From positions 124,001 to 188,000 of the forward strand of contig ONDM01000004.1 of NCBI GenBank assembly GCA_900316585.1: 64,000 nucleotides of DNA. The letters are read 5' to 3'. Made by a program: the position numbers and the translations under genes. The notes under the pieces are model-generated. The model saw only the letters and a program-made list of their open reading frames with translations, was not told where the DNA came from and made no database searches. The stretch is from an uncultured Prevotellaceae bacterium. GTDB lineage: Bacteria > Bacteroidota > Bacteroidia > Bacteroidales > Bacteroidaceae. Each line of letters opens with the position of its first letter. The stretch's first letter is position 1. Below are positions 51,677-60,841 of the stretch, one piece after another.

Positions 51677-54600
51677 ATGAAACATTTCAATCAAGTTTCA
51701 AAGAAAATGTCGGTATTTCTGGCATTTCTTCTGATTGGAGTCACTACTGCTTTAGCACAGATAACTGTGAAAGGTACAGTGACTGATGAAGCTGGTGAGC
51801 CTATTATAGGTGCCAGCATTCTTGAGAAGGGTACTACCAATGGTACGATTACTGATTTTGATGGTAATTTTGAACTCCGTACCAGGAATGGCGCCACATT
51901 GGAAATATCTTATGTGGGTTATGTTACCCAGGAAGTTAAGGCCGCAGCATCTTTGAAGGTTATCTTGAAGGAAGATACTGAGGTCCTTGATGAATTGATC
52001 GTGGTAGGTTACGGTGTACAGAGAAAGAGTTCTGTTACAGGTGCTATCAGTTCTGTTAAGTCAGAAGATATGCAGAATCGTACCATCACTACCGCTCAGC
52101 AGGCATTGCAGGGTAAGACTGCAGGTGTTCAGTTGCTTACCAATTCAGGAGCTCCAGGTCAGAGTGGTGCCATCCGTGTAAGAGGTTTCTCTTCAAATGA
52201 CACTTCTGATCCTCTTTATGTTGTAGATGGCCTGCGTACTACTGACATCTCCAATCTTGATCCTAATGACATCGAAAGTATGGAGGTATTAAAAGATGCT
52301 GCATCTGCTGCAATCTATGGTGCTGAAGCTGGTAATGGTGTTATTTTGATTACTACCCGTAAGGCATCTAAGGGAATCCGACGGATTTCTTATGATTTCC
52401 AGTACACTTCACAGAAAATGGATCATATTCCTGATGCTTTGAATGCTAGTCAGTATATTGATTGGATGTGTTCAGGCAACTCTCCATTCATCAATCAAAG
52501 TACATTGGATACATATTATGTACAAGGAACTGATACAAAATGGAAGGATGTAGCATTTGAAACTGGAGTCATGCAGAAACATAACGTAGGTTTCCAAGGT
52601 GCTAATGACTTGGGTTCAATCTATGCATCCATGACTTATACAAAGAATGATGGTCCAGTTGTAGGGAATAAGGATACATTTGATCGTATAACAGGTACTT
52701 TGAATGCTGATTATAAGATTAAAGATTGGTTGAAAATTTCTACTAATAATTCCATCAGCCGCCATCATCAATCTACAGTTGCTGAAGGTTCAAATATCGG
52801 AGGATCATTAATGTTCTCTGCTTTAAAGATGGATCCTTTGACTCCAGTAGTTTTTACAGATCAGTATTTAGCTAATCCAGGTATCGCTAGTTTTATAAAC
52901 AGCTATTTGAACTCAGGTCATACTTTATTGACAGATGAGGATGGACACTATTATGGATTCTCTTTGTTTACCAACACTAACTCTGTGAACCCACATGTGA
53001 TGTTGAATCGTCGCTATAATGACGTGGATGGTTTCAGCTTCTCTGGTTCTACTTCTTTGGAACTTACTCCAATTAAGCATTTTGTATTTACTTCTCGTTT
53101 AGGTTATCGTTATATGTACAATAACAGTTATACTTATACGTCACCAAACGTAACAAATACAGATACCTTCCAGGATTACATGAGTGTAACTAATACCACA
53201 AACACCTTAGGTTATTGGCAATGGGAGAACTTCTTGAACTACAATCAGACTTTTGCAGATAAGCACAATGTAAGTGCCATGATTGGTATGTCATATTCTG
53301 ATACAAGCAACTATTTTAATACAGGTGTGGTTTCAGGTTCTGGTAGTGGAAATGCAGCTGAACTCGGTTTCTTGAAGAATGATCCAAATTATGCATTCCC
53401 TGCTTATAAGAGTGGTTCTGCTGTACAAACAGTTACTGGAGGTGAAAAACTTCATGTATTGAAGTATTCATACTATGGTCGTATTGGCTATGACTTTGCA
53501 AATCGTTATTATGCTCAGTTCTCTCTACGTGCTGATGCTGCGGATACTTCTATTCTTCCTACTAATCAGCGCTGGGGCTACTTCCCATCAGTGTCTGTAG
53601 GTTGGAATATAACCAACGAAAACTGGATGAAAAATCAGAATGTATTCAATCAACTGAAGCTTCGTGCTAGCTGGGGACAGAACGGTTCTACTGCAGGTTT
53701 GAATAACTACCGTTATGCAGCAGTAATTGCTAAGGGTTATGTATATAACTTTGATAATAGCGGCACTTATCATACAGGTAACAAACCATCATCAACTGGT
53801 AACTACAATTTGAAGTGGGAGACTTCTGAACAAATAGACCTTGGTGTTGATATGCGTTTCTTGAATGACCGTTTGGCATTTGGCATTGACTGGTATAAGA
53901 AAAAGACTAAGGATTTGATTATTACTAACACAAGTCCATCATTGACTATCGGTAATACTGTATCTCCTGTAAATGCTGGAAATGTTGAAAACACTGGTTT
54001 TGAATTTGAACTTTCATGGAAAGACCGTATTGGTGATTTCTCATATGGTATCAGTGGCAATATCGCAACCTTGAAGAATAAGGTAACTTTCATTGATGAG
54101 TCTTTAACTCGAGTAGCAGGTACCACTCATGAATCTATGGGATTCTATTTTGAGAAGGATCATCCATTGTGGTATATGCGTGGCTATAAATTTGATCATA
54201 TTGATGCACAGACTGGTAATCCTATTTTCTTGACAGCAAATGGTGAAGAGACACTTACACCTGGTACAGCTGATCAGACAGAAATAGGATCCGCTATTCC
54301 AAACTTCACTTATGGTGTCACATTGACAGCGGCATATAAGGGCTTTGATCTTGTTGTATTTGGTACAGGATCTCATGGAAATGATGCATTCATGGGCTTC
54401 CAAAGAAATGTACGTGCAACAGATAACGTTCCTGTATATTGGTATGATAATCGTTGGAAGGGTGCTGGTGATTCTGGCGCACTTTACCCAGCTCGTGAAC
54501 AGACTGTAAACTGGTCAGCATACTATTCTTCAAGTGCAATGGTTGAAGATGCCAGCTACTTCAAGATTAAGCAAGTTCAGTTAGGCTATACTTTCCCTAA

Positions 54601-54787
54601 GACACTGATTGGTAAAATTGGTCTTGAGCATGTTCGTGCCTATGTTTCTCTTGATGACTTCTTTACTTTCACAAGCTATCCTGGCTATGACCCAGAGATT
54701 CAGCTTACAGGTAATGCTCTTGGATTGGATTATGGTTCATATCCAACCACAAAGAAAGTCGTATTAGGTGTTAGCTTGTCATTCTAA
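51677..54787 (+). CDS. SusC-family TonB-dependent outer-membrane transporter
   Basis: 1036 residues. A signal peptide (ending ALAQ, about residue 28) is followed by a carboxypeptidase-like domain (about 30-100, GTVTDEAGEPIIGAS). Then come the TonB box region ELIVVGYG, the plug domain (about 115-230, with LQGKTAGVQ, SGAIRVRG and YVVDG) and a 22-strand barrel ending in the outer-membrane signature VVLGVSLSF. Paired with the SusD-like lipoprotein, it imports oligosaccharides or glycosides across the outer membrane. It lies after the catabolic genes rather than before them, an unusual order. Confidence 0.96.
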   Translation: MKHFNQVSKKMSVFLAFLLIGVTTALAQITVKGTVTDEAGEPIIGASILEKGTTNGTITDFDGNFELRTRNGATLEISYVGYVTQEVKAAASLKVILKEDTEVLDELIVVGYGVQRKSSVTGAISSVKSEDMQNRTITTAQQALQGKTAGVQLLTNSGAPGQSGAIRVRGFSSNDTSDPLYVVDGLRTTDISNLDPNDIESMEVLKDAASAAIYGAEAGNGVILITTRKASKGIRRISYDFQYTSQKMDHIPDALNASQYIDWMCSGNSPFINQSTLDTYYVQGTDTKWKDVAFETGVMQKHNVGFQGANDLGSIYASMTYTKNDGPVVGNKDTFDRITGTLNADYKIKDWLKISTNNSISRHHQSTVAEGSNIGGSLMFSALKMDPLTPVVFTDQYLANPGIASFINSYLNSGHTLLTDEDGHYYGFSLFTNTNSVNPHVMLNRRYNDVDGFSFSGSTSLELTPIKHFVFTSRLGYRYMYNNSYTYTSPNVTNTDTFQDYMSVTNTTNTLGYWQWENFLNYNQTFADKHNVSAMIGMSYSDTSNYFNTGVVSGSGSGNAAELGFLKNDPNYAFPAYKSGSAVQTVTGGEKLHVLKYSYYGRIGYDFANRYYAQFSLRADAADTSILPTNQRWGYFPSVSVGWNITNENWMKNQNVFNQLKLRASWGQNGSTAGLNNYRYAAVIAKGYVYNFDNSGTYHTGNKPSSTGNYNLKWETSEQIDLGVDMRFLNDRLAFGIDWYKKKTKDLIITNTSPSLTIGNTVSPVNAGNVENTGFEFELSWKDRIGDFSYGISGNIATLKNKVTFIDESLTRVAGTTHESMGFYFEKDHPLWYMRGYKFDHIDAQTGNPIFLTANGEETLTPGTADQTEIGSAIPNFTYGVTLTAAYKGFDLVVFGTGSHGNDAFMGFQRNVRATDNVPVYWYDNRWKGAGDSGALYPAREQTVNWSAYYSSSAMVEDASYFKIKQVQLGYTFPKTLIGKIGLEHVRAYVSLDDFFTFTSYPGYDPEIQLTGNALGLDYGSYPTTKKVVLGVSLSF

Positions 54788-54811
54788 TAACCTTAAAAAT
54801 AAATTGCAATT

Positions 54812-56419
54812 ATGAAAATACAATATATATTATCTAGTATCCTTTTGGCAGGAGCTGTACTTCTGACCTCATGTGAGGATAAACTGGATCAGACACAGCA
54901 TGGCGTAGATTCAATTGATTCCTTTTATAAGACTGATGCAGATGCTGAGTCCGCACTGAGTTCTATCTATGGTGCCGTGCTTCATGTCTACGGCTATCAG
55001 TACACAGTAAAAATGGCTTTGGGTGATGACAGCTGGACAGGAGGTGGTGGTCACAATGATGGTACATATCTGTTAGGTGACCTTACTTATGATGAGGCTG
55101 AGTCCAATTTAACAGGCCTTTATGAGTATCTATATAAAGTAGTGTATGCTGCCAACATTATGTTAGCAAACGTAGAAGAAGATACTCCAGCAAAGAAACA
55201 ATATTGCGCAGAGGCTCGCGTTTTGCGTGCATATACCTACTTTGATTTGGTGACACTTTGGGGTACTCCTCCATTAATAACAGAGCCATTGGAAGCTGGT
55301 AACTATCAACAGCCAAACTCTACTTCTGCTGAAATCTGGGCACAGATTGAGGCTGATTTGACAAGTGCTATTAATAGCAATGCTTTAGTAGAAAAGAATT
55401 CTGTTAATCAGGAGAATGGTTCTTACCGTGTGACTAAGCAATTCGCTCAGGCTCTGTTAGGTAAAGCTTATCTTTGGCAGAAAAAATACACTGAGGCTGC
55501 TACGATGTTGGATAATGTAATAAACTCCGGTAAATATAAGTTGTATGCCCTTCCTGGTTCAGGTGAGGAACTCGAGAATCTTTGTCAGGAAATAGGTGAG
55601 GACAATTGTGAAAGTATCTTTGAAATTAACTGGTTCCGTGATATTACACAACCTAGAATTTACAATGCTCCAATGGTAACTTGGGCATGGGGTGTATTCC
55701 TTGGATGGAGAACTTCAGATCGTCTCAATTGTAGTGCTTTGAATCCTTCATGGGACATTCATACTGCAACTTGGGGACGTTGGAATCCTCGTAAAGATCT
55801 TTACAATGCATTCGTCTCAGAAGAAGGTGAGAATGGATATCGTTTACGTGCAACAATCATTACTTTGAATGAATTGTTGGATAATGGTGCTACTTATTTC
55901 AATGACTTGAATGATAATGAGGGTTATTTCCAGTGGAAATATAGATTCCAGACGAAGTCAGCTATGAGTTCTTTCTGGTGTTCTAACAATTTCCGTGTTA
56001 TGCGTCTTGGTGAGGTTTACTTGCTTGCTGCTGAGGCTTATATCCAGTCAGGCAATACAGCTAAAGGTGCTGAGTATATCAATGCAGTACGAGATCGTGC
56101 TCGTGTAGCAGCTCGTGCTACAGGTACTATGGATGAATTGAAATTGGAAAAGAGACTGGAGATGGCATATGATGCTACTCGTTTCCAAGATTTACAGCGT
56201 TGGGGTCTTCAGGAAGCTTTAGGTTCTTGGAAGGGGAAGCAGTATCCTACTGTACGTCAGGAATATGATGCAAATAACAAACCTATATTCAAAGGTGATA
56301 GTCAAATCTATTGGACTCAAACTGCAGGTTCTTATTCCGCTAAGGTGGATTTGCTTCCATTCCCACAGTCAGAAATGAATACTAATCCTAATTGTGTTCA
56401 GCAGTCTGCTTGGCAGTAA
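54812..56419 (+). CDS. SusD-family outer-membrane substrate-binding lipoprotein
   Basis: 535 residues with a lipoprotein signal peptide (LLTSC, Cys21) and the alpha-helical TPR-rich SusD fold: an N-terminal KLDQTQHGVDSIDSFYKTDA segment, ARVLRAYTYFDLVTLWG near residue 136 and the conserved EVYLLAAEAYIQSGN near residue 403. It forms the lid of the SusC transporter and selects the glycan or glycoside. The ligand cannot be read from sequence. It lies 24 bases behind susC, with a strong terminator 38 bases after its stop. Confidence 0.96.
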   Translation: MKIQYILSSILLAGAVLLTSCEDKLDQTQHGVDSIDSFYKTDADAESALSSIYGAVLHVYGYQYTVKMALGDDSWTGGGGHNDGTYLLGDLTYDEAESNLTGLYEYLYKVVYAANIMLANVEEDTPAKKQYCAEARVLRAYTYFDLVTLWGTPPLITEPLEAGNYQQPNSTSAEIWAQIEADLTSAINSNALVEKNSVNQENGSYRVTKQFAQALLGKAYLWQKKYTEAATMLDNVINSGKYKLYALPGSGEELENLCQEIGEDNCESIFEINWFRDITQPRIYNAPMVTWAWGVFLGWRTSDRLNCSALNPSWDIHTATWGRWNPRKDLYNAFVSEEGENGYRLRATIITLNELLDNGATYFNDLNDNEGYFQWKYRFQTKSAMSSFWCSNNFRVMRLGEVYLLAAEAYIQSGNTAKGAEYINAVRDRARVAARATGTMDELKLEKRLEMAYDATRFQDLQRWGLQEALGSWKGKQYPTVRQEYDANNKPIFKGDSQIYWTQTAGSYSAKVDLLPFPQSEMNTNPNCVQQSAWQ

Positions 56420-56457
56420 TTAAAGTGAATGTTGCTTATAGCATAATGTAAGTTGTA

Positions 56458-56510
56458 AGGAGCTAGAGCTGCTTAACGCACTCGCGTTACTCCTCTAGCT
56501 CCTCTTTTAT
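56458..56510 (+). terminator. Intrinsic terminator after susD
   Basis: AGGAGCTAGAG (56458-56468) pairs with CTCTAGCTCCT (56493-56503). An inner stem TAACGC/GCGTTA sits between the arms, and a T-rich tract follows. It would cut susCD off from the downstream esterases unless read-through occurs. Confidence 0.85.
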
Positions 56511-56531
56511 TTATTTAAATTCTGAACAAAA

Positions 56532-56762
56532 ATGGATTTAGCAGCAAGATTGAAGTTACTTTTGTTATCTTTTGCATTAATTCCGTTATTGGTTTTTGCT
56601 CAGAAAACATATAGTCAGATTGACCCTGCACCGGCAAAGCCACCTGTAATAGTTACTTGTGATGCAGAATCAGGTGATTAGATTCATTTAATTTTGGAGA
56701 CGACAGATAATGCGGAACTTCTTTTGACAAAATATCATCGTCTTATTATATATGTAAAATAA
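56532..56762 (+). pseudogene. Internally deleted remnant of a DUF1593 gene
   Basis: From ATG 56532 an intact signal peptide leads to KPPVIVTCDAE, which matches the start of the mature DUF1593 protein at 59264 (KPRVIITADAE). It then jumps to SGD, a TAG stop (56679-56681), and IHLILETTDNAELLL...HRLII, which matches the last residues of the same protein (SGDEIHLVLEATDNGNLPL...NRLII). About 430 codons are missing between the two ends, and a codon matching Glu (GAA) in the intact copy is TAG here. The junction lies at a GATGC-type sequence found at both places in the intact gene. Non-functional. Confidence 0.85.
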
Positions 56763-56776
56763 AATTTGGAATACAG

Positions 56777-57955
56777 ATGAAAAAAATATTGATTGTAGGT
56801 GCGTTACTTGCATGTGTGGTGCCTGCTTGTGCACAGCAGAACCTGTGGAAGTCGCAGGACATAGAATCCGCTGTGGTCAATCTGGACCATACGGTAACTT
56901 TCCGCTTCCAAGCTCCTAATGCTCAAAAAGTACAAATTGCAGGTGACTTCGCTGAGATTAAGGAAGATAATCCTGTAGGTGGTCTGGTAGGAACTGGACT
57001 GATTGATATGAAGAAGGAAAATGACAGCATTTGGGTATATACTTCTGCTCCATTGAAGAGTGAATTATATAGCTATATGTTTGTGGTCGATGGCACGGTG
57101 ACTGTGGATCCTAATCATCCATACATTTTCCGTGATTTTGGTACAGTAAGCAACTATTTTATAGTAGGGGATGGATTGGCAGACTTATTCCGAGTTCAAC
57201 AGGTACCTCATGGCACTCTTCAGAGTATTTGGTACACTAGTGAGCGTTTTAAGATGAATCGCAGACTGAATGTCTATACTCCTGCTGAATATGAGAAGAA
57301 CCCTAATAAAAAATATCCTGTGCTTTACTTGCTTCATGGGGCAGGAGGTGATGAGGATGAATGGGTAAATTATGGAAGAACTTGCCAGATTATTGATAAT
57401 TTGACTGCTAAGGGACTATGCGAGCCAATGATTGTTGTCATGCCGAATGGACATGTATCTTTTGAGGCTGCTCCAGGTGAAAGCAGTCTGGGTCTCTACA
57501 AGCCTTTCCATCCTGCCATGATGAATGGTGAGTTTGAGCAGGGTTTCCCAGAAATAATCAATTTCGTGGAGAGTAACTATCGTGTACAGGCAGACAAGGC
57601 TCATCGTGCTATTGCTGGACTGTCTATGGGTGGTTTCCATAGTTTCCACATTTCTCGCTTATATGAGAATACTTTCGACTATGTGGGTTTGTTCTCTGCA
57701 GCGGTTGGCCTGACCAGACAAGAAGGTATTTATAAGAATGCAGAAGAAACCTTGAAGAAACAGATTGCTAATGGTGTGAAGTTGTATTGGGTTGGCTGTG
57801 GTACAGAAGATTTCCTTTACAAGAATAATGCGGATATGCGTGCCATGTTTGACCGTTTGGGATTAAAGTACATTTATCGGGAAAGTGGTGATGGTCATGT
57901 TTGGAAGAACTGGCGTCTGTATCTCGCAGAGTTTGCTCCATTGCTTTTTAAATAA
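56777..57955 (+). CDS. Exported CE1-like esterase with N-terminal CBM48-like domain (copy 1)
   Basis: 392 residues. A signal peptide (1-19, ending ACAQ) is followed by an immunoglobulin-like E-set/CBM48 domain (about 25-125, [19 protein letters not shown]) and an esterase-D-like alpha/beta hydrolase. The hydrolase has YLLHGAGGDEDEW near residue 182, the nucleophile Ser283 in GLSMGG, and His in [10 protein letters not shown] near residue 372. This layout is that of feruloyl and acetyl xylan esterases of Bacteroidetes. It removes an acyl group from a plant glycoside; which group is unknown. A close paralogue follows 27 bases later. Confidence 0.92.
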   Translation: MKKILIVGALLACVVPACAQQNLWKSQDIESAVVNLDHTVTFRFQAPNAQKVQIAGDFAEIKEDNPVGGLVGTGLIDMKKENDSIWVYTSAPLKSELYSYMFVVDGTVTVDPNHPYIFRDFGTVSNYFIVGDGLADLFRVQQVPHGTLQSIWYTSERFKMNRRLNVYTPAEYEKNPNKKYPVLYLLHGAGGDEDEWVNYGRTCQIIDNLTAKGLCEPMIVVMPNGHVSFEAAPGESSLGLYKPFHPAMMNGEFEQGFPEIINFVESNYRVQADKAHRAIAGLSMGGFHSFHISRLYENTFDYVGLFSAAVGLTRQEGIYKNAEETLKKQIANGVKLYWVGCGTEDFLYKNNADMRAMFDRLGLKYIYRESGDGHVWKNWRLYLAEFAPLLFK

Positions 57956-57970
57956 TTGTTTAACCTCTAA

Positions 57971-59179
<1,209 letters not shown>

Positions 59180-59263: not shown

Positions 59264-60841
59264 ATGAAGAGATTTTTAGTTTCAGTATTGATGGGTATGG
59301 CATTTTTGCCAATGTACGTCTTTGCTCAGTCATTATCAGCCCAAGGACTGAATTATGCTGATGGATGGGCCGTGAAAGCTCCTGTGGAGAAACCTCGTGT
59401 GATTATCACAGCCGATGCTGAATTGGACGACAGCAATTCTTTAATCCGTTTTCTGCTTTTTTCAACCGACTATAAAGTTGAGGGCTTGATTTATACCAGT
59501 AGCCAGTTTCACTGGAAAGGTGATGGTAAAGGGACTAAGTATTGGGTGTCAGGCAGGGAGTACGACCGTCCGGGACTTGGCTTTGAACCGATGACTCATT
59601 ATCGTTGGGATGAAGATAATCGTTTTATTGACGATGTGGTGGATGCTTATGAGAAGGCTTATCCTAATTTGAAAATACATAATCCAAATTATCCTACTCC
59701 AGAGTACATCCGTTCAAAGGTGGCTTGGGGAAATGTCTATTTCGATGGTGAGTTTGAACGTGATACTCCAGGTTCCGAATTGATCAAGAACGTACTCCTT
59801 GACGATGAACCAGGTCCTGTCTTTGTAGAAGCTTGGGGTGGTTGTTCTACTATTGCTCGTGCCTTGAAGAGTATTGAGGATATTTATTCCCAACAGCCTG
59901 GATATGATAAGATAAAGGAAAAAGTCAGTGAAAAGCTTGTTCTTTACCTGAGTGGTGACCAAGATAATTTATATGATAAATATATCAGACCTTATTGGCC
60001 AGCAGTAAAGCAGCAGCCCACAGGTCATGGTGCGCCAGGTCTAAGTTTCATGTCTCCTGCCATGGCAAAGAATGATCTTCAGAAAATGCTTTATGGCCCA
60101 GAATGGATTAAGGAAAACATTTTATCTAGGGGTGATATAGGTGCTCTTTATCGTGTTTGGGGAGATGGCAAACAGTTTGCCAAGGGTGATATATATGACC
60201 CATTTGGTTTCGATAAATCAGCTGATGAGTTGAGGGCTATGGGTTATGTTTTGTGGTGTCCACTTCAACCCAAGGGAACTTTCATCAGTGAAGGTGATAC
60301 GTTCTGCTTCCTGAACTTGATTGACAATGGTTTGAAGGGATATGTCCAGAATTGGGGAGGCTGGGGAGGCTACCAGTTGCCAGTGAAACCAGATCAGCAG
60401 AACGTGGGTCGTCGTCAAGGTGGTTCAAATGCTCGTCCTGCAATACCCGAAGCAAAGACTCCAGATTTTTTGCCTCCAGTAATGTATGGTTTCGCAGAAC
60501 GATTGAAATGGGGTGTTACTCCTAATTATGCAGATGCAAATCACGAGCCTCAGATTGTGGGTCCTACAGCTATTACAGCCAAGGCTGGTGAAACATTGAA
60601 GTTGAAGTATACCGTGACAGACCCAGATAAAGGTCAAAAGGTGAATGTCTCTTGGTGGAAGCATCCAAGTTGCTCTTATGAGGCAGACTGTAATGTGGCT
60701 GATCCATCTTCAGCTAACACAACTTTTACTGTTCCTGCAGATGCTAAGAGTGGAGATGAAATACATTTAGTATTGGAGGCAACAGATAATGGGAACTTAC
60801 CATTGACTCATTATAACAGATTGATTATTACTATTAAGTAA
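59264..60841 (+). CDS. DUF1593 protein with nucleoside-hydrolase-like fold; possible furanosidase
   Basis: 525 residues. A signal peptide (1-22, ending FAQ) is followed by a DUF1593 domain (about 40-350), which starts with PRVIITADAELDDSNS. Asp51, Glu53, Asp55 and Asp56 resemble the calcium/substrate aspartates of inosine-uridine nucleoside hydrolases. A C-terminal beta-rich domain (about 420-525, ends RLIITIK) is also found in the relic near 56700. Nucleoside hydrolases cleave bonds to furanose sugars, so a furanosidase role is plausible; no DUF1593 activity is known to me. It lies six bases before the carboxylesterase gene. Confidence 0.85.
   Translation: MKRFLVSVLMGMAFLPMYVFAQSLSAQGLNYADGWAVKAPVEKPRVIITADAELDDSNSLIRFLLFSTDYKVEGLIYTSSQFHWKGDGKGTKYWVSGREYDRPGLGFEPMTHYRWDEDNRFIDDVVDAYEKAYPNLKIHNPNYPTPEYIRSKVAWGNVYFDGEFERDTPGSELIKNVLLDDEPGPVFVEAWGGCSTIARALKSIEDIYSQQPGYDKIKEKVSEKLVLYLSGDQDNLYDKYIRPYWPAVKQQPTGHGAPGLSFMSPAMAKNDLQKMLYGPEWIKENILSRGDIGALYRVWGDGKQFAKGDIYDPFGFDKSADELRAMGYVLWCPLQPKGTFISEGDTFCFLNLIDNGLKGYVQNWGGWGGYQLPVKPDQQNVGRRQGGSNARPAIPEAKTPDFLPPVMYGFAERLKWGVTPNYADANHEPQIVGPTAITAKAGETLKLKYTVTDPDKGQKVNVSWWKHPSCSYEADCNVADPSSANTTFTVPADAKSGDEIHLVLEATDNGNLPLTHYNRLIITIK

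Follow-up and report, generated by a model that had tools for sequence, protein, structure and literature searches.

The susC/susD locus considered here, a sugar-use gene cluster of an uncultured Prevotellaceae bacterium, carries between susD and the first of two esterase genes a short reading frame that recalls both ends of a DUF1593 gene, which raises the question of whether this frame is the relic of a second such gene or something else. The frame (56532-56762, + strand) was analyzed within the window, i.e., the whole 64,000-nucleotide stretch (contig ONDM01000004.1, positions 124,001 to 188,000), and compared with five congeners (six genomes with the source genome, G000). Among the genomes searched, the closest relative was G002, deposited as the MAG Bacteroidales bacterium UBA4293. 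We conclude that the frame is almost certainly a pseudogene, derived from a DUF1593 gene (copy A) that was intact in the ancestor shared with G002 and then underwent a single 1338-bp in-frame deletion, acquired a TAG and took on further changes.

A truncated DUF1593 frame between susD and esterase 1

Translation of 56532-56762 gave an open reading frame of 49 residues that is closed at codon 50 by a TAG (56679-56681, + strand) and followed by 26 further in-frame codons and a TAA. Its N-terminus resembles a signal peptide and continues into ...KPPVIVTCDAESGD. The 5' part of the remnant (56532-56666, + strand) consists of this start and the first ~45 codons, ends at the Asp-Ala of the DAELDD motif and is 72% identical in nucleotides to codons 1-45 of G002 copy A; the 3' part (56667-56762, + strand) holds the last 31 codons of copy A plus the TAA and is 87% identical to the end of the G002 gene. 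An earlier note, made from the window sequence, had described the first ~45 and last ~30 codons of a DUF1593 gene joined in frame with one TAG, and both translation and the G002 alignment bore this out. No Pfam family matched the 49-residue product up to an E-value of 0.1, and as the remnant is without the Sde182_NH-like domain (PF07632, which we take to be the former DUF1593) it does not qualify as a functional gene of this family.

Directly upstream lies susD (54812-56419, + strand), the product of which is 94% identical to its G002 counterpart. Esterase 1 (56777-57955, + strand) starts 14 bp past the remnant stop, the same spacing as after intact copy A in G002, and is followed by esterase 2 (57983-59179, + strand; 67% identical to esterase 1) and an intact DUF1593/Sde182 gene, copy B (59264-60841, + strand; PF07632, E 5.6e-58; PF21027, Sde0182_C, E 1e-15). 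At least three further DUF1593-type genes are present in G000, two of them side by side ~11 kb downstream of copy B; these genes map to L042:7752-10765 (G000:C14, past the window end) and L041:5082-6674 (G000:C9).

A terminator-like hairpin (56458-56504, + strand; MFE z-score of -4.96 for 56450-56520) separates susD from the remnant and is common to G002, where its counterpart falls within L039:11575-11690 on the minus strand. G000 and G002 each have a single occurrence of its 21-base core, which is absent from the four other congeners, and the stems of the two species differ by a paired, i.e., compensatory, change from G-C to A-U. A simple terminator scan did not include 56458-56504 among its calls. 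The hairpin is probably a terminator or attenuator that reduces expression of the genes past susD; it lies outside the remnant and was untouched by the deletion.

An intact orthologue in the sister species

In G002 the locus contig (public as DGVD01000015.1) has, at precisely this place between susD and esterase 1, an intact DUF1593 gene of 522 codons, copy A. The gene order there is susC, susD, copy A, esterase 1, esterase 2, copy B, a carboxylesterase gene and a presumably GH3-like gene, and the window is otherwise the same. Pfam places a nucleoside-hydrolase-like domain at residues 38-368 and a C-terminal domain at residues 449-521 of the 522 residues of G002 copy A. A relative with a full-length gene at this place, aligning to both ends of the remnant, was what the earlier note had named as the check on its reading of a second DUF1593 gene, and G002 provides one; its further proposal that the locus once held two such genes is also supported by G002, which has copy A ahead of the esterases and copy B behind them. 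Relative to G002, the start codon of the remnant, the bases just before it and the frame up to the TAG are preserved.

The locus with a close esterase 1 was found in two of the five congeners, G002 (94% identical) and G005 (86%), and no further close esterase 1 was found at E 1e-150 in a family-wide sample of 301 genomes. An intact orthologue occupied the syntenic place in one of these two loci (G002 yes, G005 no). In a DNA search with the remnant region, G002 was the one match among the five congeners, and phage records gave none. An order-wide search for relatives of copy A (393 genomes, own genome included) gave one match outside the genus at E 1e-100, with 47% identity, and a scan of genome contigs for copy A returned only the G002 record itself, with no second intact orthologue or remnant. 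As one intact-gene genome and one remnant genome were compared, the deletion can be placed no more precisely than later than the divergence from G002.

Alignment scores assign both halves of the remnant to copy A. Against G002 copy A, the 5' half reached a local score of 106 and the 3' half 135, with 33 as the best of 1000 shuffles in either case. Against the copy B of the window, only the 3' half stood out at the DNA level (42 vs. a maximum of 29 in 300 shuffles); the 5' half, at 24 vs. 27 for shuffles, could not be told from chance, so the case made in the earlier note could not have been proven by DNA alignment within the window alone. Searching the whole genome at the protein level with copy B did find window positions 56619-56759 (E 2.3e-8), with one TAG inside. 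The same scores bear on the idea that two DUF1593 copies were collapsed or fused into a chimera during assembly, for which the presence of several such copies in the genome might speak. However, copy B of either species reached only 24-25 (5' half) and 50 (3' half) compared to the 106 and 135 of copy A, the remnant carries substitutions of its own relative to G002 copy A, the TAG among them, and no full copy A was found elsewhere in G000, where the best match of the G002 gene is copy B at 52%. We therefore regard an artefact as barely conceivable.

Alternatively, the G000 lineage may never have possessed a full copy A and instead received a short inserted fragment, and the lack of copy A at this place in G005 would fit such a history. 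Against this, both flanks run colinearly into the intact G002 gene, the upstream hairpin and the 14-bp downstream spacer are shared, and the flanking SusD and esterase 1 are each 94% identical to the G002 protein, which makes insertion of a fragment highly improbable.

A single in-frame deletion with a GATGC at both ends

Compared to G002 copy A, the remnant is missing 1338 bp, equal to 446 codons and thus a multiple of three that keeps the frame. Residues 1 to about 45 and 492-522 of copy A are retained, and nearly the whole nucleoside-hydrolase-like domain is lost together with about residues 449-491 of the C-terminal domain; because later changes blur the junction, the join can be placed only to within about ten bases. 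A 5-bp direct repeat, GATGC, stands at both breakpoints in G002 copy A, encoding Asp-Ala at residues 44-45 (DAE) and 490-491 (DAK), and one copy is kept in the remnant (56661-56665, + strand). In copy B, GATGC occurs at 59414 and 60740, the joined sites pointed out in the earlier note, and also at 59642 and 60533. Since copy B has the motif at matching places, the parental copy A of the G000 lineage very probably had it too.

Among 200,000 random deletions in G002 copy A, junction homology of at least 5 bp had a probability of 0.007, while the gene contains 1222 pairs of five-base repeats at least 300 bp apart (544 of them in frame), so that the GATGC pair is not special in itself. Deletion between short repeats, which had been suggested as the simple explanation on the basis of copy B, gains support from the GATGC at both ends in the intact copy A, and replication slippage or another short-homology deletion would account for the junction.

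On this reading, the ancestor shared with G002 had an intact DUF1593 (Sde182 nucleoside-hydrolase-like) gene, copy A, at this place between susD and esterase 1, its product probably being secreted. One 1338-bp in-frame deletion in the G000 lineage, arising most likely from misalignment between two 5-bp GATGC sequences, then took out almost the entire nucleoside-hydrolase-like domain and over half of the C-terminal one, presumably with loss of function, and the leftover frame later gained its TAG and other changes.

Sequence decay of the remnant

Besides the lost 1338 bp and domains, the remnant bears a premature stop at 56679, where the TAG faces a CAA (Gln) codon in G002; at least two changes separate the two sequences at this codon. 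Changes at first and second codon positions relative to G002 were counted in the remnant and in the matching ends of five intact neighbors (SusD, esterase 1, esterase 2, copy B and the carboxylesterase). Such changes were almost three times as frequent in the remnant (23/152) as at the pooled neighbor ends (43/760; Fisher p = 1.5e-4), an excess that rests on 76 codons and on a pairwise comparison in which changes are not assignable to a branch; against copy B alone the same count was weaker (23/152 vs. 11/152, p = 0.022). Nucleotide identity to G002 was 0.719 for the 5' part and 0.871 for the 3' part of the remnant, compared to 0.844 and 0.849 for copy B. The 5' part thus accounts for the excess, a good share of which lies in the signal peptide, a fast-evolving segment in any case, and the 3' part is at least as well conserved as the copy B end. 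The counts point to relaxed constraint, but copy A, which lies on a long branch, may simply evolve faster than its neighbors.

These counts are likewise relevant to whether the remnant works as a small gene, either encoding a secreted peptide (~26 residues once the signal is cleaved) or acting as a leader that serves translation or transcription of esterase 1. Such a role would make sense of the 49-codon open frame with its signal-peptide-like start, of the conservation of this start and the preceding bases in G002 and of the retained 14-bp spacing to esterase 1, yet all conserved features are accounted for by common descent with copy A. Moreover, first and second codon positions change at a raised rate, the peptide is without a Pfam match and the TAG severs the 3' part. 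A working small gene is therefore very unlikely, and decay of copy A remains the preferred reading.

Copy A, copy B and exchange of the susC/susD pair

The earlier note had also drawn a parallel between the two DUF1593 genes and the esterase duplication, which was not supported. Copies A and B are 49-52% identical and the two esterases 67%, and G005 has both esterases and copy B without copy A, its susD being followed directly by esterase 1; the split between A and B therefore matches the esterase split neither in divergence nor in co-occurrence. In a 14-row tree, which was midpoint-rooted and has long branches, with the long rows L053 and G005_x2 meeting near the drawn root, G002 copy A fell outside the B copies of G000, G002, G005, G003 and G004 (support 97/95), and copy A grouped with all B copies (support 100/99). 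This was the second of two trees; the first had included G000_c14c, which was then left out because of its long branch, and had lacked G545, G003_C42 and G004_C34. Given the tree, the identities and G005, copies A and B look like older paralogues and not like products of one block duplication together with the esterases. The absence of copy A from G005 would reflect either a loss there or the arrival of copy A with the susC/susD pair of G000 and G002.

In G005 (L040:181-2915, compared to window positions 51677-56419), a different susC/susD pair stands before the same esterase to copy B block. SusD is 41% identical between G005 and the window and a SusC fragment 57%, compared to 86% for esterase 1, and such divergence beside a well-conserved esterase suggests that the susC/susD pair has been exchanged. 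A search with SusD in 349 genomes at E 1e-110 gave four matches, G000, G002 and, outside the genus, G007 and G008 (44-45%). The latter two (L070 and L071) have no PF07632 gene anywhere in the genome and so give no information on the source of copy A. As a tentative and somewhat doubtful extension, the upstream part of the locus might swap as a unit, with a susC-susD-copy A cassette fronting the esterase to copy B block in G000 and G002; the remnant would then be the trailing edge of this cassette, its DUF1593 gene having been dispensable given copy B.

Comparison with known systems

Sde_0182 of Saccharophagus degradans (PDB 2yhg, named there a cellulose-binding protein) carries Pfam domains PF07632 and PF21027, and copies A and B resemble it in combining a nucleoside-hydrolase-like domain with a C-terminal domain. 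Sde_0182 is described as having no activity towards nucleosides, as possibly acting as a furanose-binding module and as also having carbohydrate-binding domains (PMC8910321). Copies A and B differ from it in giving no Pfam hit for carbohydrate-binding domains of the Sde_0182 type, and the remnant keeps neither domain of copies A and B. A search for papers naming DUF1593 found none in the collection searched.

Gene loss from a carbohydrate-use locus is cleanly illustrated here, with an intact gene in a neighboring species, near-exact breakpoints and a short repeat, and one of two DUF1593 genes could go while the remaining locus stayed intact; about mechanism, the remnant adds little that is new. 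Bacterial pseudogenes can arise by internal deletion between short direct repeats, and the remnant resembles known cases of this kind in that two gene ends meet at a short sequence common to both, the frame carries a stop as well as point changes and a relative has the intact orthologue. With no notable difference from these cases, apart from a deletion that here happens to be in frame, the remnant is a real but ordinary deletion pseudogene and a product of ordinary gene decay.
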